A stretch of 64,000 nucleotides of DNA from a virus: positions 1 through 64,000 of IMG/VR virus record IMGVR_UViG_3300050821_006672; one strand, given 5' to 3'. This document shows positions 12,612 through 63,207 of this stretch, in pieces. The stretch's first letter is position 1. Every line of letters starts with the position of its first letter. The translations under genes were made by a program, and so were the position numbers. The notes below the pieces were generated by a model that saw nothing but the letters and a program-made list of their open reading frames with translations, did no database searches and had not been told where the DNA came from.

Positions 12612-14600
12612 TCACCCTTCCGTAAACAGTACTCGTCCGATTGCGGTAATCAATGGTGCCAGCTTATCAGACTGATTGAAGGGCTGTGAGAATGCATCAA
12701 GAATTCCCAACGCATGACAGGCGGCACGATCGGTCTTCGCTCCTTTGGCAACGCTCGCCATGTAGTTAGCCACCACAATGCGGATTGACTCTGGGTTTTC
12801 GCCATCGAGTTGTTCGAGTAGTCCCATTGCCTTCATCCATGATCCCCCCTTGACCAGGAAGCGGCAGAGTTCGATCATGGCATCGGACTGAGAAGCAGTG
12901 TGGAGTAGTTCGCTGGCTTCTTTACGAGACCTGGCGTTTCGACACAACTCGAGGTTGACAAGGAGTTGGCGTGGCGAGCCACGGGCTTCCTTGATGATGG
13001 TATCGCCGACATCTCCAGGGAGTTCCAGGTCCTCAGCTTCGGCAACTTTGTCATACAATTTGCCAAGGTCGGTATTGGGAACATCACGCAGAGTGTAGCT
13101 GGCAGCACGGGTCTTGATTGTATCTGGCACTTTCGATGGTTCGGTTGTGCAGAAGAACCAAAAAGCATGTTCCGGGGGTTTCTCAGTGATCTTCAATAGT
13201 GACTGCCATGCATTTTTCGATAAACTGTGACAGTTGTGTACAATAACATTGGCGACGCTAAATGATGGGTGCTCTTTTATTTCTAAGTCATAGAACTCAA
13301 ATAGCGCTTCACCGTCCAGACTACCGCACGGGAATTGCCCGATATTTGTGAGTTCTTGAAGCGAAGGATGGTCCACCCCAATGACTGTAGTCGCTCGTCC
13401 TTGAGCTTGTCTATTTGGCGTTGTTGTCGAGAGTTGTGTGTTCCACCATCCACCTCGATACCCAATCGCTGCTTCGGAAAACCGATGTCGATTTTGTAAC
13501 AGGATGGCCATCCCTTTAGCCTTCGACCATGCCCAAACGTAACAACATGTTCCAACTGCCCACCAACTAAGGAGTGTAGTAACGTTTGTTCCCGAGTTGG
13601 TCCCTTGCCATTCCCACCGCGTTCGCCTGTCCATATGTGAAGCGTGCCATTGGTATCTTTCACGCGTAGCATCTTTTCTACTGTCGCTTGATTGCGCATT
13701 GGGTTGTTGTGACGCATTCGAATACTGCATCGTTTGGCAATGCCAGCCCACATCTCTGGTTTTTTGTGTTTGCTTCGAAGCACTCCCGCACGTTGATTGT
13801 TTTTTCTTTGCTGGGAGTGAGATCGTCCAACTCGTTTCAAACCACCAAGTTTGGCTCCGCATTTTCGTGAACACGTAGTTACAGGGGATGTTGGCCGCGC
13901 TCGAAAGTATTCTCCACAAATTACGCATTTTCTCTTCAAGCACTCTGGACAGAATATTGATCCACTTTTTTTGCTCGTATACCGGGTCCCACATTGACGA
14001 CAAGTGTTGTGGTATATTGGAGGCGTTAGTGGGTAACCTTTTGGCATGTAAATCCCTCGCGTTGATCCAACCGCCAAATGTCAGAAATGGATGTTCTTGC
14101 GAGGAGATTATATGATGCCCGCTTTCCAGGCGCAATCTAACAATGTGTGATAAAGGAACTAGTCGTTTGCTCACTGATGCGACAGTTTGCTCGCCGTGAG
14201 CGCCTAGTACTTTGTCTCCTGACAGGAGCTGTTCAATGGGAACATCCCCGTTAGGAGTGTTTACTAAGGTGCCTTTAACAAAGCATTCGTCCAAGATGAC
14301 GGCGCGTTTCGTTCCCTGCCCGAATGGTTTGTAACGAAGCATCTCCTGGATTGAGCGCATATCGTCAACGCCAGTACGAGATGCGGCGTCAATCTCGGTG
14401 ATGTTGGCATCGAGACATCCTGCTGTTCGCGCAGATATCCTTGCCAAAGTCGTCTTTCCACATCCCGATGGCCCACAGAAAAGGAAGGTTTGCGCTCCCC
14501 CTCTTAAGATAATGGCTTTCAATGATTTGATAATAGTTGTATGACCAATGACCTCATCAAAGGTTCTAGGTCGATACTTGTCGTGCAGTACCTCTGTCAT
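12612..14600 (-). CDS. Clamp-loader AAA+ ATPase interrupted by an intein
   Basis: 662 residues before splicing, about 311 after removal of the 351-residue intein. ATG 14600 overlaps the previous stop (ATGA). The extein has the KYRPRTFDEVIG box of DnaX/RFC loaders, Walker A GPSGCGKTT (43-51), an intein inserted directly after Walker B VILDE (Cys106), then CHSLSKNAWQSLLK and the sensor-1 CTTE. The loader opens the DnaN-like clamp (18636-19682) around primed DNA. Only one loader gene is visible. Insertion in the Walker B/DEAH motif is typical because that site is invariant. Confidence 0.9.
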   Translation of the reverse strand: MTEVLHDKYRPRTFDEVIGHTTIIKSLKAIILRGGAQTFLFCGPSGCGKTTLARISARTAGCLDANITEIDAASRTGVDDMRSIQEMLRYKPFGQGTKRAVILDECFVKGTLVNTPNGDVPIEQLLSGDKVLGAHGEQTVASVSKRLVPLSHIVRLRLESGHHIISSQEHPFLTFGGWINARDLHAKRLPTNASNIPQHLSSMWDPVYEQKKWINILSRVLEEKMRNLWRILSSAANIPCNYVFTKMRSQTWWFETSWTISLPAKKKQSTCGSASKQTQKTRDVGWHCQTMQYSNASQQPNAQSSDSRKDATRERYQWHASHMDRRTRWEWQGTNSGTNVTTLLSWWAVGTCCYVWAWSKAKGMAILLQNRHRFSEAAIGYRGGWWNTQLSTTTPNRQAQGRATTVIGVDHPSLQELTNIGQFPCGSLDGEALFEFYDLEIKEHPSFSVANVIVHNCHSLSKNAWQSLLKITEKPPEHAFWFFCTTEPSKVPDTIKTRAASYTLRDVPNTDLGKLYDKVAEAEDLELPGDVGDTIIKEARGSPRQLLVNLELCRNARSRKEASELLHTASQSDAMIELCRFLVKGGSWMKAMGLLEQLDGENPESIRIVVANYMASVAKGAKTDRAACHALGILDAFSQPFNQSDKLAPLITAIGRVLFTEG
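13233..14285 (-). mobile_element. Intein in the clamp loader, with an internal endonuclease gene in another frame
   Basis: 351 codons between DE and CHSLSK. Block A is CFVKGTLVNTPNGD, block B is SSQEHPFLTFGGW, block F is FYDLEIKEHPSFS, and the end is VIVHN followed by Cys+1, so the splicing residues look intact. The region between block B and block F translates in the intein frame as a Ser/Thr/Trp/Gln-rich sequence without a recognisable endonuclease, because the endonuclease lies in another frame (13283-14047). The intein frame nevertheless has no stop codon there. Confidence 0.9.
13283..14047 (-). CDS. Vsr/DUF559-like homing endonuclease nested in the intein, other frame
   Basis: 254 residues from ATG 14047, with GAGGG eight bases upstream; both lie inside intein block B coding sequence. 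The N-terminus carries Cys knuckles (CRQCG, FCPECLKRKCVICGE, CSRKCG), the middle a basic RSHSQQRKNN region, and the C-terminus a Vsr/DUF559-like nuclease: YKIDIGFP, LGIEVDGGTHN, then LKDERLQSLGWTILRF. Its TAG stop falls within the codons for intein block F (YDLE) in the other frame. It is probably translated on its own and drives homing of the intein allele. Confidence 0.85.
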   Translation of the reverse strand: MPKGYPLTPPIYHNTCRQCGTRYTSKKSGSIFCPECLKRKCVICGEYFRARPTSPVTTCSRKCGAKLGGLKRVGRSHSQQRKNNQRAGVLRSKHKKPEMWAGIAKRCSIRMRHNNPMRNQATVEKMLRVKDTNGTLHIWTGERGGNGKGPTREQTLLHSLVGGQLEHVVTFGHGRRLKGWPSCYKIDIGFPKQRLGIEVDGGTHNSRQQRQIDKLKDERLQSLGWTILRFKNSQISGNSRAVVWTVKRYLSSMT

Positions 14601-15019
14601 TTCTTTTCCCATGGAAATACTAGCCAAGTATCTTGTTCGACTTTTACAGAGAATGTATCAATGAATTGTGTTTCCGTAGGTTTTGCGTACACCACTGCAT
14701 AATGAGCAGTAAGCACTTTTTGTACGCTTTCTATCGTTTTTCCTGTACTAATAGTGTCATCAACTACTAATACGGGACTAGGCATGAGACGGGGAAACTT
14801 GGTGATGTGAAGAAGACTGCCTCGTTGTTTGTTTTCGTCGTAGCTTTCTATGCATAGGGTTTCAATCATACGAATGTTGAGTTCGTGTGCAATTATTGTG
14901 GCTGGAACCAAGCCCCCTCGGGATACTGCAATAATTGATGCGAAGCCCCGTGGCAGTTGTTTGATGAGTGCTCTGGTGTCCTGATGAAATCGTTCCCAGG
15001 TGATGTTGATGGTATTCAT
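14597..15019 (-). CDS. Phosphoribosyltransferase (xanthine/hypoxanthine type)
   Basis: 140 residues. VSRGGLVPA near residue 33 and the PRPP-binding motif VLVVDDTISTGKT near residue 83 match Gpt-like purine phosphoribosyltransferases. It would make XMP or GMP-type nucleotides from free purine bases. In a phage that consumes GTP to build deazaguanine, guanine salvage is a plausible role. Both ends overlap neighbours by ATGA, so it is coupled to polymerase and clamp loader. Confidence 0.8.
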   Translation of the reverse strand: MNTINITWERFHQDTRALIKQLPRGFASIIAVSRGGLVPATIIAHELNIRMIETLCIESYDENKQRGSLLHITKFPRLMPSPVLVVDDTISTGKTIESVQKVLTAHYAVVYAKPTETQFIDTFSVKVEQDTWLVFPWEKK

Positions 15020-18000
15020 GATCGCTTATGTCCCCAAATTTCTACGGAACTGAACTTGCCAATCTCGGTCAGGTCACACCAGTTTTCTCCAACTGAGACT
15101 TCCACCCCTAGAGGAACATTTACCCATGGGAACTCTACGCGGGTCATCTCACGTACTACAATTTCCAAGTTCTTGTCGATTTCGTGCTTGGGCCAGATGA
15201 AAGTCAAATCATCATGTATCTCCATATTGGCTTGGAAACGTAATTGTTCATATTCGGACAATCGCGCCATAGCAGAACATACAATTTTCGATTCAAGTGC
15301 TTGGATAGGGCTGTTGATTCTTTGGTTAGGTGAGATTGGTGCACGACGCCTGAAACCGGACAGTCCCGTGATGTACCCTAGTTTGTAGTACATCTTTTCT
15401 AAGTCGTCATGCCACTTTTTGATATCAGGAAACTTACTCCAGAATGTCTCTTGTAGTTTGACGCCGATGTGTTTCGGAACACCCAACCCTCCCGATACAT
15501 TTTCTGCCTGCGCGCCGAAGAACGAGGGAAATACGAACTTGTTCTTCGACTCCTGCCGGAGTTCCTTTGCAAGTTCCTTGTCTTTGAGTGATTTTCCACG
15601 CAACCATTGCGGATACATTTTGGCGAGCCGATACATCCAGTCCGAATGAATGTCATAGTTGTTCCAGAATGCATCTACCAAAGCTTTATCACATGACTCC
15701 ATAGCAACATTACGTGCTTGAATACCTGAGAAATCAACTGTGACAACACGCAAATCCCCTCCCGGCTTAACCTGCTTTCGCAACTTACGGTTAGGCCCAT
15801 GCTTTACTATGTTTTGGCTATTAGGATCATTACTACTCGTTCGCCACGTGCGAGTACTATGCGTGCTAATGTGAGGATGAACGCAGCCATCCGAGTATAA
15901 AGTATCCGAGCCCTTCTTGAAGGGAAGTATATACGTGGAATGCATCTTGTTGGCTTCGCGCCAATCCAAGACCAAGTTTACAAAAGGATGTTTGATCTGT
16001 TTGAGTTCGTTTTCATCCACGCTCTCGACGGGATGATTGAGTATCTTCTCAATGACGAACTTGACATCCTGATTGGCTGATGGTCGAAATTCTGTCTTTT
16101 TTATCCGAGCAAACTTCTTTACGACGTCGAGTTGTGTCAGGTCTTTCTCTATCTTGCTACGACGTTGCGTAAATTCCTTGTCAAACTCGTTAACGACATC
16201 CTGGTTTGCTGGAATGCCTTTCAATTGGGTGAGAACCATCGTTGGGATGCGCCGCAACTGATGCTCGTACACACCCATCAAATCTTCGTCACGCAGACGT
16301 TTACGCTGTGGGAAGTACAAGTAGCGATGGGCTTTGCTATCGAGTGCGTTGTAACGTAGGACTTGGTCTAATGGTTCCTTGTCCAGGTTGTTCTTATCGA
16401 GCTTCCCAAACAACGCTTTTACGTCCAGCCCAAAGTACTGGATGCAAAGGAACTCGAGGCTGTGGCATCCGGGGTTGCCTCCCATACGTTCATCCAGGAT
16501 GTAGGCTTGTGAAAGCGTGTCTTCCCAGGGTTGGGCGCGGAGTACCTTCCTGCCATAGAAATATGCTGACCACTCCATTTCAAAGGAGAGTGAATGTACC
16601 ACCTTCTTACAAGGAGCGGTCAGGAGAAACTCTAGCAGAGTATCTTCTACGCGTTCGATCTGACGATCAGACCAGTCACATTCTGGATGATACAAGGGAA
16701 ATGATGCGGCAACCTCATATCCCGCCATTGCCACTGTGAGTATTTTTGAGGTCTTCTTGTATGGGCGTAATCCTTTTGTTTCGTAGTCATAGCCGACGAT
16801 CTTTTCGTTATGCATCGCCTTGATGAACTTGATTGCGGCATCGGGATTTGTAATGATCTCTACGTCACGTGAGAGGTCCTCGACGGTGAAAACCTTGGGT
16901 TCGGGGAGTTTGTCAACGATGGCAAATGCATTACGCAGATCATTAGCAAATGCGAACTCGATGTCCGAGCCATAGCTGTTTTTATCCCTTGGCTCAAACT
17001 TGCGGGACCGTCCTACGTAGGACGGATGCATCATGGGGAAGAACCAGCAAATGTGATTCCCTACCTTGATGGGAACATGTCTGCCATTCCACTTGGTAAT
17101 GCCTTGCTGCTTGAGCGCCCATTGAAGGGGCACGTTTCCAAAACCGAAGATTGCTTTTGGCTTTGTCTTTTCTACGTCGGACGTAATTGATGGACGGCAG
17201 CACTCCACTTCTACCTGGGTAGGTTCACGGTTCTTGGGTGGTCGAGTGTTGCTTACGACATGATTTTCCGCTACATACCAACCTTCGTCGGTTTCTAAGT
17301 TGTATATAAATCCTTCAAAGGGTTGGGTATCAATATGAATGACATTGTCAAACTGTATAAGAGTGGGGTTAGTTTGTGTCAACTTGAAGAGCAACTCGGA
17401 ACCTCCAAGTTCTTGATTAAGAAAATCCTCCTTTCTAATGGGGTGCGAATGCGTACCCATAGAGAGTCCAGAAATATTGAAGCGGCTAAGCCCTTGTGGA
17501 GACCTCCATCCGTTAAGGAAGTCTGTGATAGGTACGTCGCCGGTGAAAGCACGGAAGAACTCGCTAAAATTTATCATGTCCGCCCGCGTACTGTAAGTAG
17601 TTTTCTCAAACGGAACGGTATTAAAATCAGAAATGTTAGTGAACAGCTGCGTGTTTGGGCAAAGCGAAATCCCAGTGTTATCGATAGGAAACGTCGCTTC
17701 GGTCAGGGTATTAGATTGGGGGCCAATCTCAGAGAGGTTTGTACTCGCGAGGCACGTGCTAGAAGACTTCAACAAACACTTTCTGTTGCCTCTGATATTG
17801 AGCTGCTGTTGATTCCCGAACTTAAGCGGAGAAGCATTCGATTTATCAGACAGTACCCAGTTGGGACTTACAACCTCGACTTCGCCTGTTCCAATATCGC
17901 CGTGGAAATTGAAGTTAGTGTCAACCATCCGTTGGCTATGCCCCACAAGAGATTGCGCTGCAAAAAGCTCATCGAGGCGGGATGGTTTGTTTTGTTCGTG

Positions 18001-18537
18001 TGGATAAATTCCTCCCATCCATTGGTTCCTGCTACCGTAGTTAACTATTTGATCTCCAAGAGAAAGTTGATACGCGAAAAGCCATCCTTGGGATGTAAGT
18101 ATTGGGTGGTGCGGGGTACAGGGGAGTTCGTCTCCAAAACGCGTCTTGACTATTATAAGCTCACCCACGAAGTAGCGGCGGAATAACTTCTTTATTCTGG
18201 ACGGTGTTGTTACTTTTACTGAACCAGGAAAGCAGCGCACTACATTGGTCCATCGAATCTTATCATTCCATTTCTCAGGAATGCGAAAGCGTAGTATCTG
18301 GCCCGTCTTCCCGACAAACTGCTTTCCTTGCTCGTCTTCCGAGGCCCCAGGGGCTTCCCCAATTACTAAAATTGTAGGATGATCGGAACCAGTTGGCTCC
18401 ATGTGTGGATGTTTTAGCCCGCGCTGATGGTTGAGCGGACAGACCGCGCAGCCATGGCGATGAAGGAAATCTACAGATAGGTTTTTGGGAACCAGTGATT
18501 CATTGTTGCGAGCTGGGGACGTTGGAAGGAAACCCAT
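15016..18537 (-). CDS. polA: DNA polymerase I fused to an N-terminal uracil-glycosylase-like domain, with intein
   Basis: 1173 residues before splicing, about 844 after. Residues 26-100 plus the post-intein part form a family-4-type uracil-DNA glycosylase domain: Cys30/Cys33, GEAPGASEDEQGKQFVG, then the intein, then TRPPKNREP and a CC pair. A 3'-5' exonuclease follows (YDYETKGL, the HSLSFEMEW region), then a family A polymerase: motif A VVTVDFSGIQAR, the motif B region, and motif C MEIHDDLTF. The spliced junction VVR-TRPP replaces the usual Cys of this UDG motif with Thr. This is the replicative polymerase. Confidence 0.92.
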   Translation of the reverse strand: MGFLPTSPARNNESLVPKNLSVDFLHRHGCAVCPLNHQRGLKHPHMEPTGSDHPTILVIGEAPGASEDEQGKQFVGKTGQILRFRIPEKWNDKIRWTNVVRCFPGSVKVTTPSRIKKLFRRYFVGELIIVKTRFGDELPCTPHHPILTSQGWLFAYQLSLGDQIVNYGSRNQWMGGIYPHEQNKPSRLDELFAAQSLVGHSQRMVDTNFNFHGDIGTGEVEVVSPNWVLSDKSNASPLKFGNQQQLNIRGNRKCLLKSSSTCLASTNLSEIGPQSNTLTEATFPIDNTGISLCPNTQLFTNISDFNTVPFEKTTYSTRADMINFSEFFRAFTGDVPITDFLNGWRSPQGLSRFNISGLSMGTHSHPIRKEDFLNQELGGSELLFKLTQTNPTLIQFDNVIHIDTQPFEGFIYNLETDEGWYVAENHVVSNTRPPKNREPTQVEVECCRPSITSDVEKTKPKAIFGFGNVPLQWALKQQGITKWNGRHVPIKVGNHICWFFPMMHPSYVGRSRKFEPRDKNSYGSDIEFAFANDLRNAFAIVDKLPEPKVFTVEDLSRDVEIITNPDAAIKFIKAMHNEKIVGYDYETKGLRPYKKTSKILTVAMAGYEVAASFPLYHPECDWSDRQIERVEDTLLEFLLTAPCKKVVHSLSFEMEWSAYFYGRKVLRAQPWEDTLSQAYILDERMGGNPGCHSLEFLCIQYFGLDVKALFGKLDKNNLDKEPLDQVLRYNALDSKAHRYLYFPQRKRLRDEDLMGVYEHQLRRIPTMVLTQLKGIPANQDVVNEFDKEFTQRRSKIEKDLTQLDVVKKFARIKKTEFRPSANQDVKFVIEKILNHPVESVDENELKQIKHPFVNLVLDWREANKMHSTYILPFKKGSDTLYSDGCVHPHISTHSTRTWRTSSNDPNSQNIVKHGPNRKLRKQVKPGGDLRVVTVDFSGIQARNVAMESCDKALVDAFWNNYDIHSDWMYRLAKMYPQWLRGKSLKDKELAKELRQESKNKFVFPSFFGAQAENVSGGLGVPKHIGVKLQETFWSKFPDIKKWHDDLEKMYYKLGYITGLSGFRRRAPISPNQRINSPIQALESKIVCSAMARLSEYEQLRFQANMEIHDDLTFIWPKHEIDKNLEIVVREMTRVEFPWVNVPLGVEVSVGENWCDLTEIGKFSSVEIWGHKRS
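17248..18234 (-). mobile_element. Intein in the UDG domain of the polymerase, with an antisense endonuclease gene
   Basis: 329 codons inserted between NVVR and TRPPKN. It starts CFPGSVKVTT, has block B-like PCTPHHPILTSQGW and a C-terminal part FEGFIYNLETDEGWYVA ending HVVSN before Thr+1. The penultimate residue is Ser, not the usual His. The middle of the intein frame is open but codes no recognisable domain, because the opposite strand carries a complete endonuclease gene (17335-18186). Confidence 0.88.
17335..18186 (+). CDS. Homing endonuclease encoded antisense inside the polymerase intein
   Basis: 283 residues from ATG 17335 with AAAGGG upstream; a TTG at 17323 would add four residues. 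Two N-terminal HTH units (about 1-30 and 60-90, e.g. STEELAKIYHVRPRTVSSFL) precede a basic region and a Vsr/DUF559-like nuclease: SDIELLLIPELKRRSIRF, YNLDFACSNIAVEIEV, KLIEAGWFVLFVW. The gene runs against the intein, and its last 45 codons or so lie opposite the N-terminal Hint region. It is the only clear rightward gene inside the leftward block. It likely promotes intein homing. Confidence 0.85.
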   Translation: MNDIVKLYKSGVSLCQLEEQLGTSKFLIKKILLSNGVRMRTHRESRNIEAAKPLWRPPSVKEVCDRYVAGESTEELAKIYHVRPRTVSSFLKRNGIKIRNVSEQLRVWAKRNPSVIDRKRRFGQGIRLGANLREVCTREARARRLQQTLSVASDIELLLIPELKRRSIRFIRQYPVGTYNLDFACSNIAVEIEVSVNHPLAMPHKRLRCKKLIEAGWFVLFVWINSSHPLVPATVVNYLISKRKLIREKPSLGCKYWVVRGTGEFVSKTRLDYYKLTHEVAAE

Positions 18538-37192: not shown

Positions 37193-37651
37193 ATGGACCT
37201 TTCAGAACTCACCCAACTCGGCAGTGTCAGCGAAATCCCTGAGTCGCCGGATAGAGCAGTCATCGAGATCGTCAACAACCCTTATCCGCAGTTGCCCTAC
37301 ACGTGTCGGTTCACCTGTCCTGAAATGACCTCTTTGTGCCCACGGACGGGTGCTCCCGACTTCGCAACGATCGTCATCGACTACCAACCCAAAGAGTTCC
37401 TGATCGAATCCAAATCCCTCAAACTGTTCATCGCGTCGTTTCGCAATCACAGAGGCTTCCATGAAGTCTGTACCGTCATGATCTGTGATCGCCTCTATCA
37501 AGCAGTTTCACCATGTTGGATTCGTGTCGTCGGTATGTGGATGCCGAGGGGCGGAATTCCTATCGACGTTGTGATCGAGGTCGGTTGTCCTGAAGGCGAT
37601 CAGCTTCCTCCCGAGATGCCAATCGACCTTCGTGCTTATCGGGCAAGGTGA
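37193..37651 (+). CDS. queF: preQ0 reductase (7-cyano-7-deazaguanine reductase), type I
   Basis: 152 residues, the length of single-domain QueF. Cys49 in [14 protein letters not shown] is the catalytic thiol, Asp56 the acid, ESKSLKLF (72-79) the NADPH/fold signature, and [10 protein letters not shown] (82-91) supplies the conserved His/Glu. It reduces the preQ0 nitrile to the aminomethyl group of preQ1 with 2 NADPH. Its presence in a phage with DpdA predicts preQ1 rather than preQ0 in DNA. Confidence 0.93.
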
Positions 37652-37954: not shown

Positions 37955-38871
37955 CTCTATCATTCGGGGCAGAGCACGAGTGGGCCGACTTCCCACTCGA
38001 TGGGGTATTTCCTTATGGATTCAAGCATAACAAGAAAGATCACACCGTCGTCAATTCTAATGGCATTGCCAATGACCCGTCTGGTAGGCTCTACAAGTTT
38101 GGTGGTGAGATCAATTCCCCACCGACAGATTCGATAGGCGATCAACTCGACATCACCGAGAGATTAATTGACTACTTGGACATGGCGAAAGTGAACTATC
38201 GCTCCAACTTGCATATTCATCTACGTGTTCCCGGGTTGCGTGATGATCTTGCCATGCTCAAACAGGTCCAGAGATACACTCACACGAACATGCCTGCCGC
38301 GTTGCAACTCATCGAGCCCATTCCCAAGCCTTCTCATCGGGACAAACAATTCGAGAATCATTTCCAAGCTTACGAAGGTGCTCTGCGCCGCTACAAACGC
38401 AGGTGCGTCAGTCATCACACGTTGCTGACGCCTAAACGTCTGGCCTACCAACTCGAGGCCAGGACATGCGATGAGTTCTTCAGGCTAGAAGTTCCTGCCG
38501 CCCCCAATGGACGCGTGCTATGGCATCTCCAACCAAGACTGTGTGTGTCTTTGAGACAAATGCTGGAGACCGATACGATCGAGTTTAGGCATTGGCCGGG
38601 TACGCTTGATATAGACGAGTTATCGACATGTTTCCAATGGTGCAAACGTTTCATCATTGCGGCGATGAATGATCGGCCTATACTCGACTTGTTGGCATGG
38701 GCCAGGAAACAAACGTTCCCGAAGTTCCCGGATTACGTCCACTGGATGGAGTTACGTTATCGTGCCACGGTCCATGATGGGTCCCTGTCCAAGGACGAGA
38801 TCAAGCGTAATATCGCGAGAATACTCGATGGTAAGTTTGATGAACACGGAATAGGCGAGTCATTGCCATGA
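37951..38871 (+). CDS. Amidoligase-like enzyme (COOH-NH2 ligase family)
   Basis: 306 residues. FGAEHEWADF near residue 5, FGGEINSPPTDS near 50, the metal/nucleotide-site HIHLRVPG near 86, and the late TIEFRHWPGTLD near 210 follow the order of Amidoligase_2 enzymes, ATP-dependent ligases that join a carboxylate to an amine. It overlaps its neighbours by ATGA and lies between queF and queE, so an attractive substrate is the amine of preQ1, free or in DNA. This role is inference; peptide or protein modification is the alternative. Confidence 0.7.
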   Translation: MTLSFGAEHEWADFPLDGVFPYGFKHNKKDHTVVNSNGIANDPSGRLYKFGGEINSPPTDSIGDQLDITERLIDYLDMAKVNYRSNLHIHLRVPGLRDDLAMLKQVQRYTHTNMPAALQLIEPIPKPSHRDKQFENHFQAYEGALRRYKRRCVSHHTLLTPKRLAYQLEARTCDEFFRLEVPAAPNGRVLWHLQPRLCVSLRQMLETDTIEFRHWPGTLDIDELSTCFQWCKRFIIAAMNDRPILDLLAWARKQTFPKFPDYVHWMELRYRATVHDGSLSKDEIKRNIARILDGKFDEHGIGESLP

Positions 38872-39320
38872 ACATCCTCGTTGTCTGCCTTGGTAACATC
38901 TGGCGCTCGCCATTGTGCGCAGCGGTCCTGTCACGTGAAAAAGGATTAAGTGTCAAGTCCGTGGCGTTCCTCAAAGGAGGCAGGCGTGCCGCTCCCGGTG
39001 CGAGAGATTATGCACAAAACAAATTGAACGTGGACCTATCCGAACACCGCTCGCAGCAGATTACCGCGGCTGACATTGGCTGGGCCGATATCATAGTATG
39101 TATGAACGAAAGGCACATTCAACGTTTGAAGGCACTCGTCCCGCGTAAACAACTGTGGTGGGTGCGTAATCTCGGGGATTACGCCGATCCTGTAAGATCG
39201 TCAATTCCCGATCCCAACTTCATCTCTGATCCGATCCGCCTTGCGAAAACGTTGGATTTGATCTACAAGGCGTCTACCAACTTGGGAAGGCAACTCGTAG
39301 CCAAGACGGTGTCAAAATGA
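38868..39320 (+). CDS. Low-molecular-weight protein tyrosine phosphatase-like
   Basis: 150 residues. VCLGNIWRSP (Cys7 to Arg13) is the CX5R phosphate loop, and DYADP near residue 108 carries the general acid Asp. Overlaps the amidoligase by ATGA. Members dephosphorylate phosphotyrosine or act as arsenate reductases, and may cut other phosphoesters. In this operon it could process a phosphorylated intermediate of base modification, but this is guesswork. Confidence 0.8.
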   Translation: MNILVVCLGNIWRSPLCAAVLSREKGLSVKSVAFLKGGRRAAPGARDYAQNKLNVDLSEHRSQQITAADIGWADIIVCMNERHIQRLKALVPRKQLWWVRNLGDYADPVRSSIPDPNFISDPIRLAKTLDLIYKASTNLGRQLVAKTVSK

Positions 39321-39514
39321 CCGTCGTTATTTTCCGTGATGTTCAGATTGGTGATATGATCTTGGCTATTCGAGCAGCAAAATGGTTGTTGGCGCAGGAC
39401 CTAGGTCAGAAAGATGCTATACTGGCTTATGGTAAAGGTGATGATGAGAAAAGCTTCTATGTCAAACGCAACAAAAGCAGCATTACGGTGAGGTCGTGCT
39501 CCCGATCTTTGTGA
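39317..39514 (+). CDS. Small protein between phosphatase and QueE
   Basis: 65 residues starting MTVVIFRDVQIGDMILAIR, ATGA-coupled to the phosphatase and overlapping the queE start by 19 bases. The N-terminal half looks natural (beta strand and helix); the Ser/Arg-rich end may be incidental. No family recognised. Confidence 0.5.
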   Translation: MTVVIFRDVQIGDMILAIRAAKWLLAQDLGQKDAILAYGKGDDEKSFYVKRNKSSITVRSCSRSL

Positions 39515-40239
39515 ACGAGATATTTGGCCCAACTATCCAAGGCGAGGGTCCGTCAGCGGGAATGCCTTGCATGTTCTTGCGGACAGCATACTGCAATTTA
39601 TCTTGCCGGTGGTGTGACACCCCCTACACGTGGAATTGGATTGGTTCGGCGCCAGGAAATCATCCAGACAAGTTCATTCGTGAGAATGAAGTTCATAAGA
39701 TGACGGTTGATGAGGTGCTTACCCAGTTGGGGGAAGTTTCAACTTCAACAATAAGAGTACTTCCTCCTGTTCGTTCTTTGGTGATCTCGGGTGGAGAACC
39801 TATGCTGCAACAGCGCCGACTCATGCCTGTAGTTAGTATGTTGGTGATGGCAGGTTGGTGGATCGAGATCGAGACAAATGGGGCGGTCATGCCCATCGCG
39901 GCATTCACGGGGATGTTGGATCAGATCAATTGCTCCCCCAAGTTGTCCAACTCAGGAGACTCGCTAGAGCGGCGAATCAAAGAAGGACCATTGCAGGCTC
40001 TTGCGAAGGACGATAAGACAATCTTCAAGTTCGTAGTAGGCTCGGAGCCGGACCTGGATGAGGTCAATGCATTGGTCAGACAGTTCTGTATGAGGAACGT
40101 GTGGCTCATGCCGCAGGCGCGGACCAAGGAAGAGTTGGAGAAGAACTATCCGTTGGTCTGTGCATGGGGGAAGCAACTCGGGTACAATGTGAGTTCGCGT
40201 AAGCACATTGAATTGTGGGGGTCAAAACGGGGTGTTTGA
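39496..40239 (+). CDS. queE: 7-carboxy-7-deazaguanine synthase (radical SAM)
   Basis: 247 residues. The radical-SAM cluster CNLSCRWC (Cys33, Cys37, Cys40) follows FGPTIQGEGPSAG, and SLVISGGEP and EIETNG are further core motifs. It contracts carboxytetrahydropterin to 7-carboxy-7-deazaguanine, the substrate of QueC. GTG at 39496 is chosen, with GTGAGG close upstream. Confidence 0.95.
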   Translation: MLPIFVNEIFGPTIQGEGPSAGMPCMFLRTAYCNLSCRWCDTPYTWNWIGSAPGNHPDKFIRENEVHKMTVDEVLTQLGEVSTSTIRVLPPVRSLVISGGEPMLQQRRLMPVVSMLVMAGWWIEIETNGAVMPIAAFTGMLDQINCSPKLSNSGDSLERRIKEGPLQALAKDDKTIFKFVVGSEPDLDEVNALVRQFCMRNVWLMPQARTKEELEKNYPLVCAWGKQLGYNVSSRKHIELWGSKRGV

Positions 40240-40433
40240 TGGCAGGATTACTTGAGCCACAAAGACTTGACTACTGTAATTGGTATTACGAATACCCGAC
40301 GTATATGCTACTTGTTCATGAGGTAAGGGATAAAAAGGGCAAGCTGCTCACTACTGATAGCATTAAAATTCAGTGGCGTAAGATTCAGGCTTCATTGAAG
40401 CGCAGTTACAAGCCTAAGAGAAAGCCGCGTTGA
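40239..40433 (+). CDS. Small basic protein of unknown function
   Basis: 64 residues starting MAGLLEPQRLDYCNWYYEY, ending in a Lys/Arg-rich KRSYKPKRKPR tail. The start shares a base with the queE stop (TGATG). The basic tail suggests nucleic-acid binding. No family recognised. Confidence 0.6.
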   Translation: MAGLLEPQRLDYCNWYYEYPTYMLLVHEVRDKKGKLLTTDSIKIQWRKIQASLKRSYKPKRKPR

Positions 40434-40477
40434 AGCCTCTTGCAATTTTATTGCGCATCCTCTATTGTATTCGACCC

Positions 40478-40969
40478 ATGACAGGCGGACGTTGGATAGT
40501 CGCGGTCACACAACCCAACCGGGAGGGCTGGGCACTCGAAAATATCGAGCGCCAGTCCTACAAATATTACTTCCCGCAAGTAGCCGAACGCGTCAAGACA
40601 TCCCGACATTTGATGGAGTTCCGTGCCCGCCCATTATTTCCCAGACACGTGTTTGTCTACATTGAAGACAAGTGGCATTCGCTCCTGAGTACATTTGGTG
40701 TCAGGAGTATTATTATGTTCGGAGGCAATGTCGCTGTCGTTCCAGAGCGCGACATACAAAGAGTCCGTGCCATGGAAGATCAGATGGGATTGGTAATACT
40801 TCCCAGACTCCGTGAAGGTCAAGAGGTAATCCTCAAACGTGGAGCCTTCTCAGGCCAACGCGGTATCTACCAGGGTCAAAGTTCGAAAGATCGTTGTAAA
40901 GTGTTGCTTGCTTACCTGGGTCGTGTAGTTCCGGTTTTGGTTGATAGTGACATACTCAAAGCAGCTTGA
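40478..40969 (+). CDS. NusG/RfaH-like transcription factor
   Basis: 163 residues from ATG 40478; a TTG at 40430 overlapping the previous stop would add 16. RWIVAVTQPNREGWALENI opens the NGN domain, FRARPLFPRHVFVYIE is the conserved core, and a KOW domain follows (EGQEVILKRGAFSGQRGI). Such proteins bind RNA polymerase and suppress pausing or termination; RfaH types act on specific operons. Here it is followed at once by a promoter and a structured leader of the late operon, a natural target. Confidence 0.87.
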   Translation: MTGGRWIVAVTQPNREGWALENIERQSYKYYFPQVAERVKTSRHLMEFRARPLFPRHVFVYIEDKWHSLLSTFGVRSIIMFGGNVAVVPERDIQRVRAMEDQMGLVILPRLREGQEVILKRGAFSGQRGIYQGQSSKDRCKVLLAYLGRVVPVLVDSDILKAA

Positions 40970-40976
40970 GTATGAT
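40947..40976 (+). promoter_or_regulatory. Probable late promoter
   Basis: GTGACA (40947-40952), an 18-base spacer and TATGAT (40971-40976), starting transcription near 40983 just before the structured leader and the packaging and structural genes. A perfect 9-bp inverted repeat (CATACTCAA 40951-40959, TTGAGTATG 40966-40974) spans the spacer and the nusG-like stop codon and could be an operator. Confidence 0.6.
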
Positions 40977-40982
40977 AAGATG

Positions 40983-41240
40983 CAAGGGGCACCAAACGTC
41001 GGCCCTTGACTGCCCAGCAACCGATTAGGTGCCTAAGCTGGGAATAGTAAGATCGGTCAAGGCCGCCGCGGTCAGGCCTAGCAGTTCTAATAGAACTGCC
41101 CTTGCTGAGGAGGCGTTATCCCAGCACCCGGACGGTAGTGCACCTTCAAAGTAGAGATGTGGGCTGGCCAGACAGGACATACGCCGATGCGCGCAGGGTT
41201 TGGCGACGACGCAGCCCACATCTGTACTTTGGGATGAAAA
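40983..41240 (+). ncRNA. Structured 5' leader RNA of the late operon
   Basis: Four stems in 230 bases: GGCC(C)TTGAC 41001-41010 with GTCAAGGCC 41056-41064; inside it CCCAGC 41013-41018 with GCTGGG 41037-41042, topped by TTAG/CTAA; a perfect 8-bp hairpin 41081-41088 with 41092-41099; and a 19-bp stem (one mismatch) 41148-41166 with 41212-41230. No gene fits the interval. Beside a NusG/RfaH-like gene, it may be an antitermination (put-like) or recruitment RNA, or a riboswitch-like regulator. Confidence 0.6.
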
Positions 41241-41465
41241 GTGGGAATCCTGATTACGGGTCTCAACAAAGGCCCCTACCCGCGTAAGAGTTGGATCATT
41301 CTAACTTGTGATGCACGCCACTCTGGATTTCTTGGCGTACCAAATCAGAGATTTGATCAGGACGGCTTCATCAAACAGTATTCTGCCGCGATGAAAGCGG
41401 GTTGGAAAGACACATTTCGTAATGGTGACCGTGTATTTCTTTGTCCCGGTTGTTCAGGAAAATGA
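41241..41465 (+). CDS. Small phage protein with C-terminal Cys pair
   Basis: 74 residues from GTG 41241 (GGGA upstream, at the foot of the leader stem). ILTCDARHSGFLGVP and FLCPGCSGK carry Cys residues that could form a small zinc site. This small type (N-terminal TCD, FxGxP, C-terminal CCxG-like) occurs in phages without known function. Confidence 0.65.
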   Translation: MGILITGLNKGPYPRKSWIILTCDARHSGFLGVPNQRFDQDGFIKQYSAAMKAGWKDTFRNGDRVFLCPGCSGK

Positions 41466-41468
41466 GAG

Positions 41469-42116
41469 ATGGTGAATACGTTCCGTCCAATTCGAGAGCG
41501 TGCAGAGCTGTTGCTTGTTAAGCAAGCCTTGGCCATCAAGGCCGGTTGTGTTTACGCCTTATGCGATAGTAAAGGCTACGCATTCTACGTTGGCAAGACG
41601 ATACGCCCAAAGCGGCGATTTGCTGAACATGTATGGTCTTTGAAAGGAGGTCATGCGAACGTTGCCTTGCACAAGAAGGTAACGGAGCTTGGTGATGATA
41701 TTCGTGTTGCCATATTGACTTACGGTCGGACATCAGAGGAATTAAATAAGTTAGAAAGAGAGAACATTGCCCGCCGTCCCTGGACATTGAATTTGATTGG
41801 AGCGGATCATTGGGCATGGAGTTCCCGTCATGACACCAAGCCTTGGATGGCGGGTACTGGGGTACGAATGCCGTCTCAGTTACTTTTAGAGGGTTGCAGT
41901 AAAGGTTTTCGACAATTCGTTGCTCGTGACCTAAAAAGAATGAATGATGTCGATCGCTGTCGTATGGAAATTGGTATTTTTCAGAAGCTACCATTTTTTA
42001 GACAGAAAAGAGCAGAGAAGTGGTATGCTATAGTATATTGGAAACTCCTTAAATTTGTGGAAGCGGCTGCTAAAGCAGGTATTGGTTATGGCCCAATCAT
42101 TGTTTCTGGGAACTGA
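41469..42116 (+). CDS. GIY-YIG homing-type endonuclease
   Basis: 215 residues. The GIY-YIG core reads VYALCDSKGYAFYVGKTIRPKRRF in outline (VYAL ... YVGKT ... RRFAEH), then a conserved Glu region (ELNKLERENI). It is a free-standing endonuclease immediately upstream of terS, a frequent site for such elements. No intron or interrupted gene is visible around it. Confidence 0.82.
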   Translation: MVNTFRPIRERAELLLVKQALAIKAGCVYALCDSKGYAFYVGKTIRPKRRFAEHVWSLKGGHANVALHKKVTELGDDIRVAILTYGRTSEELNKLERENIARRPWTLNLIGADHWAWSSRHDTKPWMAGTGVRMPSQLLLEGCSKGFRQFVARDLKRMNDVDRCRMEIGIFQKLPFFRQKRAEKWYAIVYWKLLKFVEAAAKAGIGYGPIIVSGN

Positions 42117-42120
42117 TACC

Positions 42121-42687
42121 ATGGCGGCTCCGAAAGGGAATAAGTTCGCCGTTGGCAATCGTGGTGGTAGTGGTCATCCGTCACAGTATAAGCCGGCTTA
42201 CGCAGATCAAGCTAAAAAAGCCTGTGAGGCCGGCTTCACTGATAGTGAGTTGAGTCAGTTGTTTGGTGTGTCAGAAATGACTATCAATAATTGGAAGTTG
42301 GCTCATAAAGACTTTGCTTTAGCCCTAAACGCTGGAAAGGGTGTTGCTGACAGCCGCGTCGAGCGCAAGTTATATGAGAGAGCTTGCGGATTTTGGGTCA
42401 AGACTGAAAGGTTGTTTGTGCTCAAGGAAGATACCCTCGATAAGAGGGGGAAGGTTGTTGGATCGAAGCAATACGTGCATCACGAGCCAACAAAAGACTA
42501 TTATCCTCCAGAGGTAAGTGCCATGATATGGTGGCAGAAGAACCGCCAGCCCGATAAGTGGCGAGACAAGCACGAGATCGACGGCACGATCCGCAATGAG
42601 CATGTCTTCACCTTCAATATATTTGAGAACGATCTAAGCGCCGGTATGAAGACGATAGAAGGTAAGAAATCGGAGCGCAGACCGTGA
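42121..42687 (+). CDS. terS: Terminase small subunit
   Basis: 188 residues from ATG 42121. An N-terminal HTH (ACEAGFTDSELSQLFGVSEMTINNW) and a C-terminal WWQKNRQPDKWRDK motif are typical of terminase small subunits, which recognise the packaging site and load TerL. Position before terL supports it. An in-frame upstream start at 42055 overlaps the GIY-YIG gene and is unlikely. Confidence 0.85.
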   Translation: MAAPKGNKFAVGNRGGSGHPSQYKPAYADQAKKACEAGFTDSELSQLFGVSEMTINNWKLAHKDFALALNAGKGVADSRVERKLYERACGFWVKTERLFVLKEDTLDKRGKVVGSKQYVHHEPTKDYYPPEVSAMIWWQKNRQPDKWRDKHEIDGTIRNEHVFTFNIFENDLSAGMKTIEGKKSERRP

Positions 42688-43484: not shown

Positions 43485-43674
43485 CGAAGCTGAGGTTGAG
43501 GCGGCTGCGAAGATTATTGAACGGCTTCTGCCTCGCGATCTTGGTCGTGCAAGGCAATATGCCTCTGCTGTTCTCGAAGCTGCCGAGCGAGTGCGTGAAG
43601 AAGAATTTGCCCGCAAGACTGATTGCGATGAAGCGACTGAGCGTGTTCGCAAGGTGCGCGCCAAGTTTGGTTAA
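43477..43674 (+). CDS. Small helical protein in the SLOG cassette
   Basis: 65 residues starting MASEAEVEAAAKIIERLL, almost wholly helical with many charged residues. It overlaps the SLOG gene and the terL start (TAATG). Likely part of the same inserted cassette. Function unknown. Confidence 0.55.
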   Translation: MASEAEVEAAAKIIERLLPRDLGRARQYASAVLEAAERVREEEFARKTDCDEATERVRKVRAKFG

Positions 43675-45005
43675 TGCCAGAACCGCGCCGTAATATTAAG
43701 CTGAGCTACACTCAGCCCTATCTCTATCCGAAGCAGAAAGCGGCGATATTTGATGCGCACCGTATCTCCGTTATCGAAGCTTCCACGAAGTCGGGCAAGA
43801 CCTCGGGATGCATCGTTTGGCTGCTTGAACAGGCTTTCGCAGGTAAATCAGGACAGAATTATTGGTGGGTAGCGCCGATCTCCCGAGTAGCACGTATCGC
43901 TTTTACCCGAGCCATGCGGGCTATGAACAAGGACCTGTACGTTGCCAACCTGGGAGATCACACTCTTACTCTTGTTAATGGGGCCATCGTTTGGTTTCTT
44001 GGCGCTGACAATCCTGATTCCCTCTTTGGTGAAGATGTTCACGCGGCGGTCATTGACGAAGCCTCCCGAATGAAGGCAAGCGCCTTCCATGCTATTTACA
44101 CGACGCTTACGGCGACCCGAGGCAGGCTGAGAATTATCGGAAACGTGAAAGGCCGGCAGAACTGGTTCCACGAAAAGGCGAGGTACGCCCAGCAAGGGAA
44201 AGACCCAGAATATGCCTACCACAAGATCATCTCGCACGACGCAATCGAAGCCCACGTCCTTACCGAGGACACTGTCGAAGCAGCAAAGCGTTCCTTGCCT
44301 GACTCAGTATTTCGTGAGCTCTACCTCGCGGAGGCTAGTGATGATCAGGGAAATCCCTTCGGAATTGAGGCAATCCGAAAATGCATTGGTCCTATGTCTA
44401 CGGCCAAGCCTGAAGTGTGGGGTTGGGACTTAGCCAAGAGCCACGATTGGACGGTGGGGATTGGGCTAGATAGTGAAGGTCGGGTATGTCGGTTCGAGCG
44501 CTGGCAGTCTCCTTGGGAAGCTACCCATCTACGTATAACTGGCCTTACGATGAGAGTGAGGGCATTGGTCGATAGCACAGGCGTAGGAGATCCCATCGTG
44601 GAACGCCTCCAGAAGGTTGTTGGATCGAAATACGAAGGCTACAAGTTCACGGCAGGTAGCAAGCAGCAGCTTATGGAGGGGTTAGCGGTCGCGATTCAGA
44701 CTAAGGCGATTACGTTTCCTCCCGGCCCGATCGTTGAAGAACTAGAGGTTTTCGAATACACCTACACGGGGCACGGTGCTTCTAGGAATGTGAATGATGA
44801 AGAGTTTGAGCCAAAAGGCCACGGTATTCGCTATAGTGCTCCTGATGGTTATGACGATGATTGTGTTATGGCGCTTGCCCTTGCTGTCTATCATCGCTCT
44901 CATTCCGTGCCGCGCTTGCATGTGACGCGCGATATTGTCAATAAGTCGAAGCTGCGGGTATTTGGTAATCAAGGCTTTCATATCTCTCAGATGGGGAGAT
45001 GGTAA
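43674..45005 (+). CDS. terL: Terminase large subunit
   Basis: 443 residues. ATPase: Walker A STKSGKT (37-43), Walker B VIDEAS, coupling motif region GNVKG. RNase H-like nuclease: GWDLAKSHDWT, a mid Asp (LVDSTGVGD) and GYDDDCVMALAL. It cuts concatemers and drives DNA into the prohead with TerS. The start shares a base with the upstream stop. The N-terminal PEPRRNIKL is duplicated at 43056-43082. Confidence 0.93.
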   Translation: MPEPRRNIKLSYTQPYLYPKQKAAIFDAHRISVIEASTKSGKTSGCIVWLLEQAFAGKSGQNYWWVAPISRVARIAFTRAMRAMNKDLYVANLGDHTLTLVNGAIVWFLGADNPDSLFGEDVHAAVIDEASRMKASAFHAIYTTLTATRGRLRIIGNVKGRQNWFHEKARYAQQGKDPEYAYHKIISHDAIEAHVLTEDTVEAAKRSLPDSVFRELYLAEASDDQGNPFGIEAIRKCIGPMSTAKPEVWGWDLAKSHDWTVGIGLDSEGRVCRFERWQSPWEATHLRITGLTMRVRALVDSTGVGDPIVERLQKVVGSKYEGYKFTAGSKQQLMEGLAVAIQTKAITFPPGPIVEELEVFEYTYTGHGASRNVNDEEFEPKGHGIRYSAPDGYDDDCVMALALAVYHRSHSVPRLHVTRDIVNKSKLRVFGNQGFHISQMGRW

Positions 45006-59807: not shown

Positions 59808-60004
59808 ACGAACCCGAGGAATATCTGCTTCAGTTCTTTGCTTACAGCCATCTTAAGCCTGAACTACAAGAGTTCAGCAAGCCATTTGGGGAACTTGCAA
59901 GCTCGCTTGTTGTAATGCTCCCCCGCAATCCCGAGCGAACGACAGCGCTTCGCAAGCTGCTAGAGGCCAAGGACTGCGCAGTTCGGGCTAAATTGTATAA
60001 GTAA
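59804..60004 (+). CDS. Small conserved-type phage protein with a KDCAVRA motif
   Basis: 66 residues: HLKPELQEFSKPFGELA helix, then PRNPERTTALRKLLEAKDCAVRAK. This compact two-helix pattern recurs in many phage genomes beside prohead protease or portal genes; function not established to my knowledge. ATGA-coupled on the left and TAATG-coupled on the right. Confidence 0.6.
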   Translation: MNEPEEYLLQFFAYSHLKPELQEFSKPFGELASSLVVMLPRNPERTTALRKLLEAKDCAVRAKLYK

Positions 60005-63000
60005 TGCAACCTGCTTTAAGTACCCTCCCCAACTCTGGTCTTCCACTTGCTAGGAAGCCTGTGGAAGACCAGCTTGTTCGCGCGGCGGGACTTATGGTCG
60101 TAACGCCGAACGGCGAGGCGCTATTTCTGCGATATGCGCCCGACCACGATCACAGCGGCGAGTGGGCTTGGCCGGCAGGAGGGCTAGAAGGCGATGAGGA
60201 AGCACGTGACGCAGCGGTCCGGGAAACCCGTGAAGAAACCGGGTGGATACCAAATGAAGAAATCAAGGAAGTCGATAGCTCTCAAGACGAGATCGATTTT
60301 ACGACGTTTGCGACAACTACAGGCAACCAGTTCATCCCTGAATTGAGCAGCGAACACGATAGCTGGTGCTGGGCGCCTCTTACTAACCCTCCTGAGCCTT
60401 TGCACCCCGGCGTAAAGCAGCTGTTGGCTAACGATCAGGCGCCTATTGCTCATCCCGCCGCTGCAAACATTGCCTCGCGCTCCGAACTTAATTCTATTGG
60501 ACCACCTTCTAAGCAGCCCAAAGAGACGCGCGCCATCAACGTCGCTTACGCGCATGGCGGGACTACTGGGCCCGAAGCTAAGCAGTCGTCTCAGGCAAAT
60601 CGCTACATAGACTCCGGTGGCTTGACGGAACACGACCGCGAGCGAACAGGAAAGAGCAAAGCCGTGTTGGGGAAAGATGCAGTGAAGAAGGAAGCGAGCA
60701 AGGGCCGTTTCTTTGATAGTGCGAGCGATGCTGGCGTTATTAACTACAAAGGCTATGAGATTCGTGCCGTACCTGGTGGCGATTTTCGTGTCTACAAAAA
60801 CGGACGCGAAAAAAAGAATATGTACAGCCTTTCATTAGCTGATGCTAAGCAAGGCATTGATTTTGTTGCTGGCGTCGAGAACGTAGAGCGAGAAGAGGGG
60901 CCGCTTCAACGAAACAAACTTAGCAGAGACGCCGAATACGTCGAAAAGCCTCATATTGGCCGCCTTCCGCCTCGCGAAGCTGAGCGATTGTCGCGGGATG
61001 CGGCTGAGGATGCCTCACAGCAAGTCGAGGCTTACAAGAAAGCTTTGCATGAGGGGAAAATTACTCGAAAGGAATTCGACGGTTTTATGGAAGCTCTCGG
61101 CGAGAAAAATCTGAGTGAGCAGCACAAGGAAGCTTTCAAGAATCGTCCTGCCAAAGACGCTGAGGACTACCGCTCTGAGCGAGGTTTTGTCGCTAAGCTT
61201 ACCGACGAAAAGGGCAGCACAATTGAAACCTCGCCGCTAATGATTTCGCGTAATAGTGCGCAGCGATGGCTCGACGAAAAGGCAGCAAAGTTGAAGCGCC
61301 TCGGCCGCGCGGTGCAAGGTACTATCCGCGAAAGTTTTATGGACCCTGCTTACATTAATGCCGACTCGATTGCCTTCGATGAAGGTTCTGTCCGCACTAC
61401 CGACCCAGACGGCCGCCTTCACGTCTCGACTACCAACATCTCCAAAGCAGTAGTCAATCCTTACAAGGGCAGTGAAATACCGGATTATGAGAAGCTCGGC
61501 TTAGAGCCCGACAAAATTTATCACCTGTATCGCGATCCGGACGAGTTAGCGAAAGCGGCCCCGACGTTCAATAATCTCCCCCTGCTCAAGCAGCATGTCC
61601 CTATTACTGCGGACACCCACAAGCCTGAGCTTGTATTAGGCTCGACGGGGACAGACGCTTCTTTCGAACATCCTTTCCTTAAGAATAGCCTGGTTCTGTG
61701 GAGTAAGGACGGTATTGACGATGTTACGTCCAATAAGAAAAAAGAACTGTCGTCGGCATATCGTTACATAGCAGATATGACGCCTGGTACTTGGGAAGAC
61801 CCAGAGACCGGCGAGCAGAAACCCTTTGATGGAATAATGAGGAATATCGTGGGCAATCACGTCGCCCTCGTAAAGGAGGGTCGTGCGGGTCACGACGTAG
61901 TTGTAGGAGACAGTGCAGCCGGATTGGTGGCCGGACGTAAACGAAAGAGGCGGGTCATGAGCACTATGACAAAAACGGCCGCCAATACGGTACTCGTTCT
62001 GAGTTCGTACATTCGGCCCAAACTGGCCCAGGATCAGAAGGTGAATCTGCTTCCTGTGGTTGAGGGCCTGACGGCCAAAAACTTTGATGAGCGTCGTTCC
62101 GGTATTATCCGCGAGGTCCGGAAATTGACGAAAGGAAAGCTCGCGAACGACGCTTCGATTGGTGAGATCGCAGAAGTACTCGATTTGCTCGAAGCCCACC
62201 CCGATACTGGCGAGGACGCGCCTGTTACGGATGTACAGGAGGCAATGATGTCAGAAATGACGGATGTGCCTGGCGCCTCTAACGTTAGTGGTCAGGGCAG
62301 TCCAGGCGGCGACCGGCGCGCGCGTGATACTCGTCGTGCTCGCGATACTTACGATCGTAAAGCACGGGATCGGAAAGCGCGAGATGCTTTCCCCCCTCCA
62401 CAGGACCGGGAAGATGATCGCGATCAGGAAGGCGAAGATCGTCGCGCGCGCGATGCTGATCCTACTGCCGCAGTCGAGTCCTTCTTGAAGGACAAGGTTA
62501 GCGGCTCCGATCTCCAGCACGTCTGCAATCTCATGCGCGGGGGCGCTACTCAAGACGATACGCTTTCGGATGGGGGTGACACTGAGCCCCATGCCGAGGG
62601 CGAAGAGGTTCTCGAGGAGCTAGGCGCTTCGCATGGTGCAGAGGACAATCCCGATGATGTACCGGATCGCAGCGATATTGATCGCTCTCGCGAATGGCAC
62701 GTCGGCGAGGGCGAGGAACCTGGTGCTGGTCATTCCGGCAAGACGGTTCAGGACCGCAACGCTTACGACAAACGCGGCGCGAAGGATCGCCGCGCAAAGG
62801 ATCGCAAACGGGCTCACGACGAGCCGCCTCCGTTCAAGGGAATGCCGAAAGTGGGTGAAGGTCCCGATAAGCGAGCCATGGATACCGCAGTAAAGATTGC
62901 GGTCGAACAGGCTACCAACAATCAGCGCGAAATCCGCAAGGCCGAGCGCGATGTGCGTCCGTGGGTTGGTGAGCTCGCGATGGACGAGGCCAAGTGCCCC

Positions 63001-63207
63001 GAAGATGTCTACGCCGCTGCTCTCAAGGCGCGTAACATCAAGATCGATGGAGTTCATCCGTCGGCTTACTCTGTCATCCTCAAAAACCTTCCGCTGCCGG
63101 GTCAGGGCGCAACTCGTAGTTCGTCGCCGCGTGTGGCTATGGATGCCGCAACTCGTGCTTCGTTCAACGATCGCTTCCCGAACGTTGGCCGGATTGGCCT
63201 GTTGTAA
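60004..63207 (+). CDS. NUDIX hydrolase, DUF2213 prohead protease and scaffold in one protein
   Basis: 1067 residues. The NUDIX domain (about 25-150) has an intact box, with GGLEGDEEARDAAVRETREE running from residue 59 and TGW completing it. Two linker regions with SRDA-type motifs follow (LSRDAEY, LSRDAAED, PAKDAED). Next comes a DUF2213-like prohead protease (FDEGSVRTTD, GLEPDKIYHLYRD, VGNHVALVKEGR), then a highly charged Arg/Asp scaffold tail (RRARDTRRARD, KARDRKARD). The protease would cleave the scaffold and perhaps its own linkers during head maturation. The fused NUDIX is unusual. Confidence 0.82.
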   Translation: MQPALSTLPNSGLPLARKPVEDQLVRAAGLMVVTPNGEALFLRYAPDHDHSGEWAWPAGGLEGDEEARDAAVRETREETGWIPNEEIKEVDSSQDEIDFTTFATTTGNQFIPELSSEHDSWCWAPLTNPPEPLHPGVKQLLANDQAPIAHPAAANIASRSELNSIGPPSKQPKETRAINVAYAHGGTTGPEAKQSSQANRYIDSGGLTEHDRERTGKSKAVLGKDAVKKEASKGRFFDSASDAGVINYKGYEIRAVPGGDFRVYKNGREKKNMYSLSLADAKQGIDFVAGVENVEREEGPLQRNKLSRDAEYVEKPHIGRLPPREAERLSRDAAEDASQQVEAYKKALHEGKITRKEFDGFMEALGEKNLSEQHKEAFKNRPAKDAEDYRSERGFVAKLTDEKGSTIETSPLMISRNSAQRWLDEKAAKLKRLGRAVQGTIRESFMDPAYINADSIAFDEGSVRTTDPDGRLHVSTTNISKAVVNPYKGSEIPDYEKLGLEPDKIYHLYRDPDELAKAAPTFNNLPLLKQHVPITADTHKPELVLGSTGTDASFEHPFLKNSLVLWSKDGIDDVTSNKKKELSSAYRYIADMTPGTWEDPETGEQKPFDGIMRNIVGNHVALVKEGRAGHDVVVGDSAAGLVAGRKRKRRVMSTMTKTAANTVLVLSSYIRPKLAQDQKVNLLPVVEGLTAKNFDERRSGIIREVRKLTKGKLANDASIGEIAEVLDLLEAHPDTGEDAPVTDVQEAMMSEMTDVPGASNVSGQGSPGGDRRARDTRRARDTYDRKARDRKARDAFPPPQDREDDRDQEGEDRRARDADPTAAVESFLKDKVSGSDLQHVCNLMRGGATQDDTLSDGGDTEPHAEGEEVLEELGASHGAEDNPDDVPDRSDIDRSREWHVGEGEEPGAGHSGKTVQDRNAYDKRGAKDRRAKDRKRAHDEPPPFKGMPKVGEGPDKRAMDTAVKIAVEQATNNQREIRKAERDVRPWVGELAMDEAKCPEDVYAAALKARNIKIDGVHPSAYSVILKNLPLPGQGATRSSSPRVAMDAATRASFNDRFPNVGRIGLL

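Follow-up and report, generated by a model that had tools for sequence, protein, structure and literature searches.

A putative conserved three-hairpin RNA beside an RfaH-like gene ahead of the packaging genes of two uncultured phages

Introduction

Does a phage carry an elongation factor of the RfaH type together with an RNA of its own at the entrance to its late genes? The question is raised by a virus record of 109,475 bases (IMGVR_UViG_3300050821_006672), in which an RfaH/NusG-like gene is followed by a folded noncoding gap and then by packaging and head genes. Capsule, conjugation, and antibiotic operons are known to employ specialised NusG paralogs. Paralogs of the RfaH family are antiterminators of long operons, and some of these paralogs adjoin their targets (PMC7593976, PMC7819879). 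We analysed positions 1-64,000 of the record (hereafter the window, 64,000 nucleotides) and compared the gap with its counterpart in a second IMG/VR phage record, L002, which is a fragment of 42 kb. The two phages are distantly related and both are uncultured.

Results and Discussion

Gene order around the RfaH-like gene

In the window, the plus-strand genes begin near 36.5 kb, ahead of the RfaH-like gene, and follow one another in the order QueF, radical-SAM, RfaH/NusG-like gene, a gap of 271 bases, a 74-aa ORF, GIY-YIG endonuclease, terminases, portal, and head genes. The RfaH/NusG-like gene (40430-40969, +) encodes 179 aa with an NGN domain and a C-terminal KOW-region, and the gap behind it (40970-41240, 271 nt) holds no plausible gene. 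The 74-aa ORF (41241-41465, +) has a GTG start and is followed by the GIY-YIG endonuclease of the homing type (41469-42116, +; PF01541, E 3.3e-7; PHROG homing endonuclease), which is missing at the corresponding place in L002. The small terminase subunit (42055-42687, +; phrog_309, E 2.5e-37) and the large subunit (43674-45005, +; PF03237 and phrog_2; 68% identical between the window and L002) come next. In both phages the terminase genes lie within a few kb 3' of the element described below, in the same direction also in L002. The original prediction had placed a structured element beside an NGN-family gene at the head of the late operon. The gene order agrees with a place at the entrance to the packaging genes, as the terminase small and large subunits and the portal follow; a start of late transcription here is no more than possible, given that plus-strand genes already begin near 36.5 kb. 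Just upstream, QueF (37193-37651, +) and the radical-SAM gene (39496-40239, +; possibly QueE) suggest a 7-deazaguanine pathway, perhaps for DNA modification, and a gene for a low-molecular-weight phosphotyrosine phosphatase lies between them (38868-39320, +).

An RfaH-like protein

The window protein matches the NGN domain PF02357 with E 4.6e-11 and 43.5 bits, above the Pfam cut-off of 22.2, which places it in the NusG/Spt5 family. Its residues 22-174 align along the full RfaH model TIGR01955 with 81.1 bits, and it also aligns to solved RfaH chains and matches phrog_6386 ("transcription antiterminator", E 1.7e-12). The family cut-off for RfaH (144.5) is reached neither by this score nor by that of the L002 protein (87.1 bits), and against LoaP the window protein scores 17.8 bits, below the cut-off of 125; it is much nearer to the RfaH model than to the NusG or LoaP models. 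The L002 protein is 69% identical to it, and among the named relatives found, proteins annotated as RfaH on Agrobacterium plasmids come closest (37% identity). In IMG/VR, L002 is the sole other phage with this protein, besides a nearly identical fragment that breaks off within the gene. The records of the terminase-related phages L003 and L013-L018, several of which are short fragments, showed no NusG-family gene, and the RfaH-like module seems to be optional within the TerL-related group. An AlphaFold model from the two-sequence alignment had a mean pLDDT of 33.6, too low to support a claim about the fold.

RfaH contacts its ops site through K10, H20, R23, and R73 (PMC5995543). Only one of these four residues, R23, is kept in the phage proteins; K10 is replaced by Q, H20 by N, and R73 by F in the window protein or H in the L002 protein. 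Within the gap, the best match to the ops sequence GGCGGTAGCGTG lies at 41131 with 8/12, and about 220 places on the plus strand score as high. The idea that the gap could recruit the protein in the manner of RfaH and ops is thus not supported, given this ordinary match and the loss of K10, H20, and R73. L002 has a match of 10/12 at 3640, which is non-homologous to that of the window and overlaps the start region of the next ORF.

A conserved core of three hairpins

A core of about 58 nt within the gap (41055-41112, +) has a counterpart at L002:3561, where it comes directly behind the stop codon that ends the RfaH-like gene. The core comprises three consecutive hairpins. P1 (41055-41078, +) consists of an outer helix GGTC/GGCC and an inner helix GGCCG/CGGTC closed by a CCG loop, H2 (41081-41099, +) is the hairpin GCAGTTCT-AAT-AGAACTGC, a perfect hairpin with arms 41081-41089 and 41091-41099, and H3 (41100-41110, +) is a short hairpin CCTT/GAGG with the counterpart CTCC/GGAG in L002. 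The loops compare as CCG and CCU, AAT and AATAA, and GCT and CTCGAA. Positions 41055-41099 of the window read GGTCAAGGCCGCCGCGGTCAGGCCTAG, overlapping the start of GCAGTTC-TAATA-GAACTGC, and in L002 the stop codon is directly followed by GGTCAAGGCCGCCTCGGTGAGGCCTAG, overlapping the start of its H2, GTAGGTTCC-AATAA-GGAATCTAC.

The two cores are 87% identical over 39 columns, as compared with an average of 67% and at most 84% for equal-length stretches of the neighbouring gene. Their local alignment scores 51, whereas 2000 shuffles average 18.1 and reach no more than 28. When folded in isolation, the cores of both phages adopt the same minimum-energy fold, with three hairpins in the same order and spacing. 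P1 is a stem with an internal loop; its paired bases are invariant, and its 24 nt hardly vary in sequence. Each of the three substituted pairs of H2 is compensatory, and L002 has extra apical pairs. All 32 cells counted were paired, as against at most 53% when the partners were slid, and in a neutral simulation at the divergence of the gene about 1% of the trials retained all eight pairs of the window. The covariation was matched by 57 of 500 shuffles, a control that is weak with two sequences; formal significance of the covariation is out of reach because only two sequences carry the core.

Since its paired bases are invariant, the conservation of P1 fits an RNA as well as a DNA element. The core might be a DNA site with no role as RNA (a packaging cos or pac site, a signal in replication, or the target of a DNA-binding phage protein). 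In both phages it lies about 1 kb 5' of the gene for the small terminase subunit, and this position, its palindromic GGCC motifs, and the retention of P1 as sequence without covariation are all in keeping with such a site. Nevertheless, H2 stays paired as its sequence changes, as a folded strand typically does and a protein-binding DNA palindrome does not, and the series of three hairpins retains its order and spacing in both phages, so that we consider a DNA site unlikely. Comparison of the two records makes it fairly secure that the core is a conserved, presumably transcribed RNA element of both phages.

A longer RNA of the window behaves differently in prediction: at minimum energy, P1 is engaged with bases further 5' and H3 is lost. 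This is a caution about folding and no sign of a switch. An evolved switch in which the 5' segment of the gap pairs with the core is not claimed, as the complementarity is no better than chance (217 of 2000 shuffles pair equally well).

The remainder of the gap is specific to the window phage

The original prediction was of a structured leader of 258 bases filled with stems directly after a probable promoter. Its stems, promoter-like site, and NGN-family gene are all present in the sequence, and the gap is strongly folded: the stretch 40960-41260 is more stable than 99 of 100 dinucleotide shuffles (z -2.98), and only one of 160 window tiles folds as stably. The gap is locally rich in G+C (57.6%), which accounts for part of this stability. 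The promoter-like site, GTGACA-18-TATGAT (40947-40976, +), is a sigma-70-like match by consensus only; it overlaps the stop codon of the RfaH-like gene, has a predicted start near 40983, and is one of four plus-strand sites in the 64 kb window that agree with the consensus at 10/12 positions or more. A 5' segment (40970-41054, +) carries the stem CCCAGC (41013-41018)/GCTGGG (41037-41042), with a small ACC/GGT stem nested within, and alternative pairings. A possible stem GGCACC (40988-40993)/GGTGCC (41028-41033) crosses the former, so that the two could form together only as a pseudoknot. A direct repeat, CCCAGCAACCG/CCCAGCACCCG, was also noticed at 41013-41023 and 41120-41130, both copies of which could compete for GCTGGG at 41037-41042.

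The 19-bp stem with one mismatch was borne out at 41147-41166/41212-41231, where 19 of the 20 bases in each arm are complementary. The whole hairpin (41147-41231, +) includes an inner stem GCCAGAC/GTTTGGC and lies directly 5' of the 74-aa ORF. Its stretch has a z of -3.62, with none of 200 shuffles equally good, and in a search for inverted repeats over 84 kb (up to 1 mismatch, loop up to 100) it was the longest, with an arm of 20 as against at most 16 in 20 mononucleotide shuffles. Sixteen bases of its 5' arm, 41153-41168, recur exactly at 13742-13757 on the sense strand of the clamp-loader gene; with a BLAST E of 0.023 this is possibly due to chance, and an RNA pairing in trans is conceivable.

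None of this surrounding structure has a counterpart in L002: the promoter-like site, the stems 5' of 41055 (with the rest of the 5' segment), and the long stem are all absent there, and the long stem has no homologue in the phage collection either. Of the leader as first proposed, the sub-part 41055-41112 (about a fifth of the 258 nt) is conserved, with compensatory changes in H2, while the rest, on a comparison of these two phages, is specific to the window phage. The long stem of 19 pairs is a local addition that might be cut by RNase III or might mask the ORF at 41241 from translation.

These features bear on a reading in which the structures form a 3' UTR or processing element of the RfaH-like gene, acting in mRNA stability or processing and/or in translation of the next ORF, with no antitermination. 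The L002 core follows the stop codon immediately, the long hairpin of the window has about 20 base pairs, which would suffice for RNase III, and its base borders a ribosome-site-like GGGATG before the GTG at 41241. On the other hand, the long stem is not conserved, and a plain stabilising hairpin would have no need of a near-invariant P1 of 24 nt. We regard this reading as rather unlikely.

Terminator signatures and searches for other identities

Hairpins directly 3' of the gene for an elongation factor could also be a terminator or attenuator that holds late transcription until the RfaH-like protein has been made and acts there, a form of autoregulation that would suit a protein family known to modulate termination (PMC7593976). 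In both phages, however, the core hairpins all lack a U-tract behind them, and the scans for intrinsic terminators, which covered both phages, listed no site in the core with a G+C-rich stem and a T-run; such a device is quite improbable. Both phages have a sigma-70-like match 5' of the core (at the end of the RfaH-like gene in the window, before the gene in L002), so that a transcript from either would cross the core.

Rfam returned no model at the gathering score in the window, and around the element neither phage gave a match even with E allowed to reach 5. A riboswitch, e.g., for 7-deazaguanine, would be suggested by QueF and the radical-SAM gene just upstream; against this stand the Rfam result and the lack of QueF on the L002 record (itself a fragment), and we take a riboswitch to be very improbable. 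The element had no DNA match in the phage and plasmid collections and none in a scan of GTDB genomes. The P1 motif, with up to 3 mismatches, occurs once in the 109-kb record and once in the L002 record. In IMG/VR, matches to the P1 pattern in L004, L005, L035, and L045 were set aside as they lie inside coding frames, and the remaining matches other than L002 are without the second GGCC arm. The core was rejected as coding sequence, its frame ending in a shared TAG with no nearby start codon. A homing-intron origin, raised by the GIY-YIG gene, was also set aside, as no group I intron model matched.

Comparison with known systems and a possible mechanism

Four kinds of known systems resemble this locus. 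Antitermination by LoaP depends on a small RNA hairpin in the target leader (PMC12691694), and the Bacillus dfn and mln leaders share with the phages a NusG paralog and a short structured RNA before a long gene cluster. The LoaP leader, however, has a UNCG hairpin, which the phage core lacks; the LoaP targets are antibiotic operons rather than phage late genes; and the phage RNA directly follows the gene of the protein itself. The put RNA of phage HK022 folds into two stem-loops that form a V bound to the beta' zinc-binding domain; it needs no dedicated protein, and its two copies lie in early operons. At a length of about 70 nt, it suffices on its own to act on RNA polymerase in cis (PMC9378689). 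The phage core is likewise a compact RNA in the range of about 60-70 nt with adjacent stem-loops, but it differs in its single copy, its three hairpins, the adjoining RfaH-like gene, and the lack of any sequence match found. RfaH with ops is similar in that the phage protein aligns along the whole RfaH model and in its target class of long operons; it differs as the phage protein falls below the family cut-off, has K10, H20, and R73 replaced, and has no convincing ops in the window. UpxY, TaA, and the plasmid-borne paralogs of the RfaH/ActX type are also encoded beside the operon that they serve, though with other cargo, and we know of no link between them and a three-hairpin RNA. Because defining features of each were looked for and are lacking in the phages, the system appears to be neither canonical RfaH/ops nor the LoaP UNCG hairpin nor a recognised put, and it may still work like them. 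A put-like role of the core, part of the original prediction, is possible, as is a LoaP-like one.

The best reading, in our analysis, is LoaP-like: a paralog of the RfaH type and, where the late genes start, a short structured cis RNA that would serve as its loading site or as a put-like antiterminator. The functional unit would be the RfaH-like gene and the three-hairpin RNA of about 58 nt directly after it. The core RNA would be made in one transcript with the terminase and structural genes behind it, and would then act in cis, either as a loading and specificity site for the phage protein or by contacting the polymerase itself in the manner of put. The elongating host RNA polymerase would thereby be converted, and pauses and terminators of the late block would be read through. 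In its favour, the core stands beside the RfaH-like gene in two phages, is conserved in sequence and structure, and carries no terminator signature. Against it, the core comes after the gene and does not clearly precede any one target, and no terminator was identified for it to overcome. As a whole, antitermination over the late gene block by this gene and cis RNA is an explanation that we put forward tentatively, at a little short of an even chance. The narrower proposal, that the phage protein is loaded by its own cis RNA encoded just downstream and so drives the whole late block, is more doubtful, albeit a possibility worth stating. It would, to our knowledge, be the first case of a phage in which a NusG paralog is paired with an RNA element dedicated to it. 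If true, it would show how late transcription is controlled in phages without lambda-like N or Q proteins, and would provide a compact RNA-protein pair for processive antitermination.

Additional features of the two records

Several other genes merit mention. The clamp-loader gene of the window (12612-14627, -) contains Hint/intein-splicing domains (PF13403, PF14890) and is probably split by an intein. A further ORF (15016-18537, -) combines a family A DNA polymerase and a uracil-DNA glycosylase-like domain, and its N-terminal part contains an intein-splicing match. In the late region of L002, a transposase-like ORF (L002:8940-9806, -) was found, of the IS1 type by reading. Near the end of the window, a single ORF of 1067 aa (60004-63207, +) matches NUDIX-hydrolase and head-maturation-protease families over its first 699 aa.
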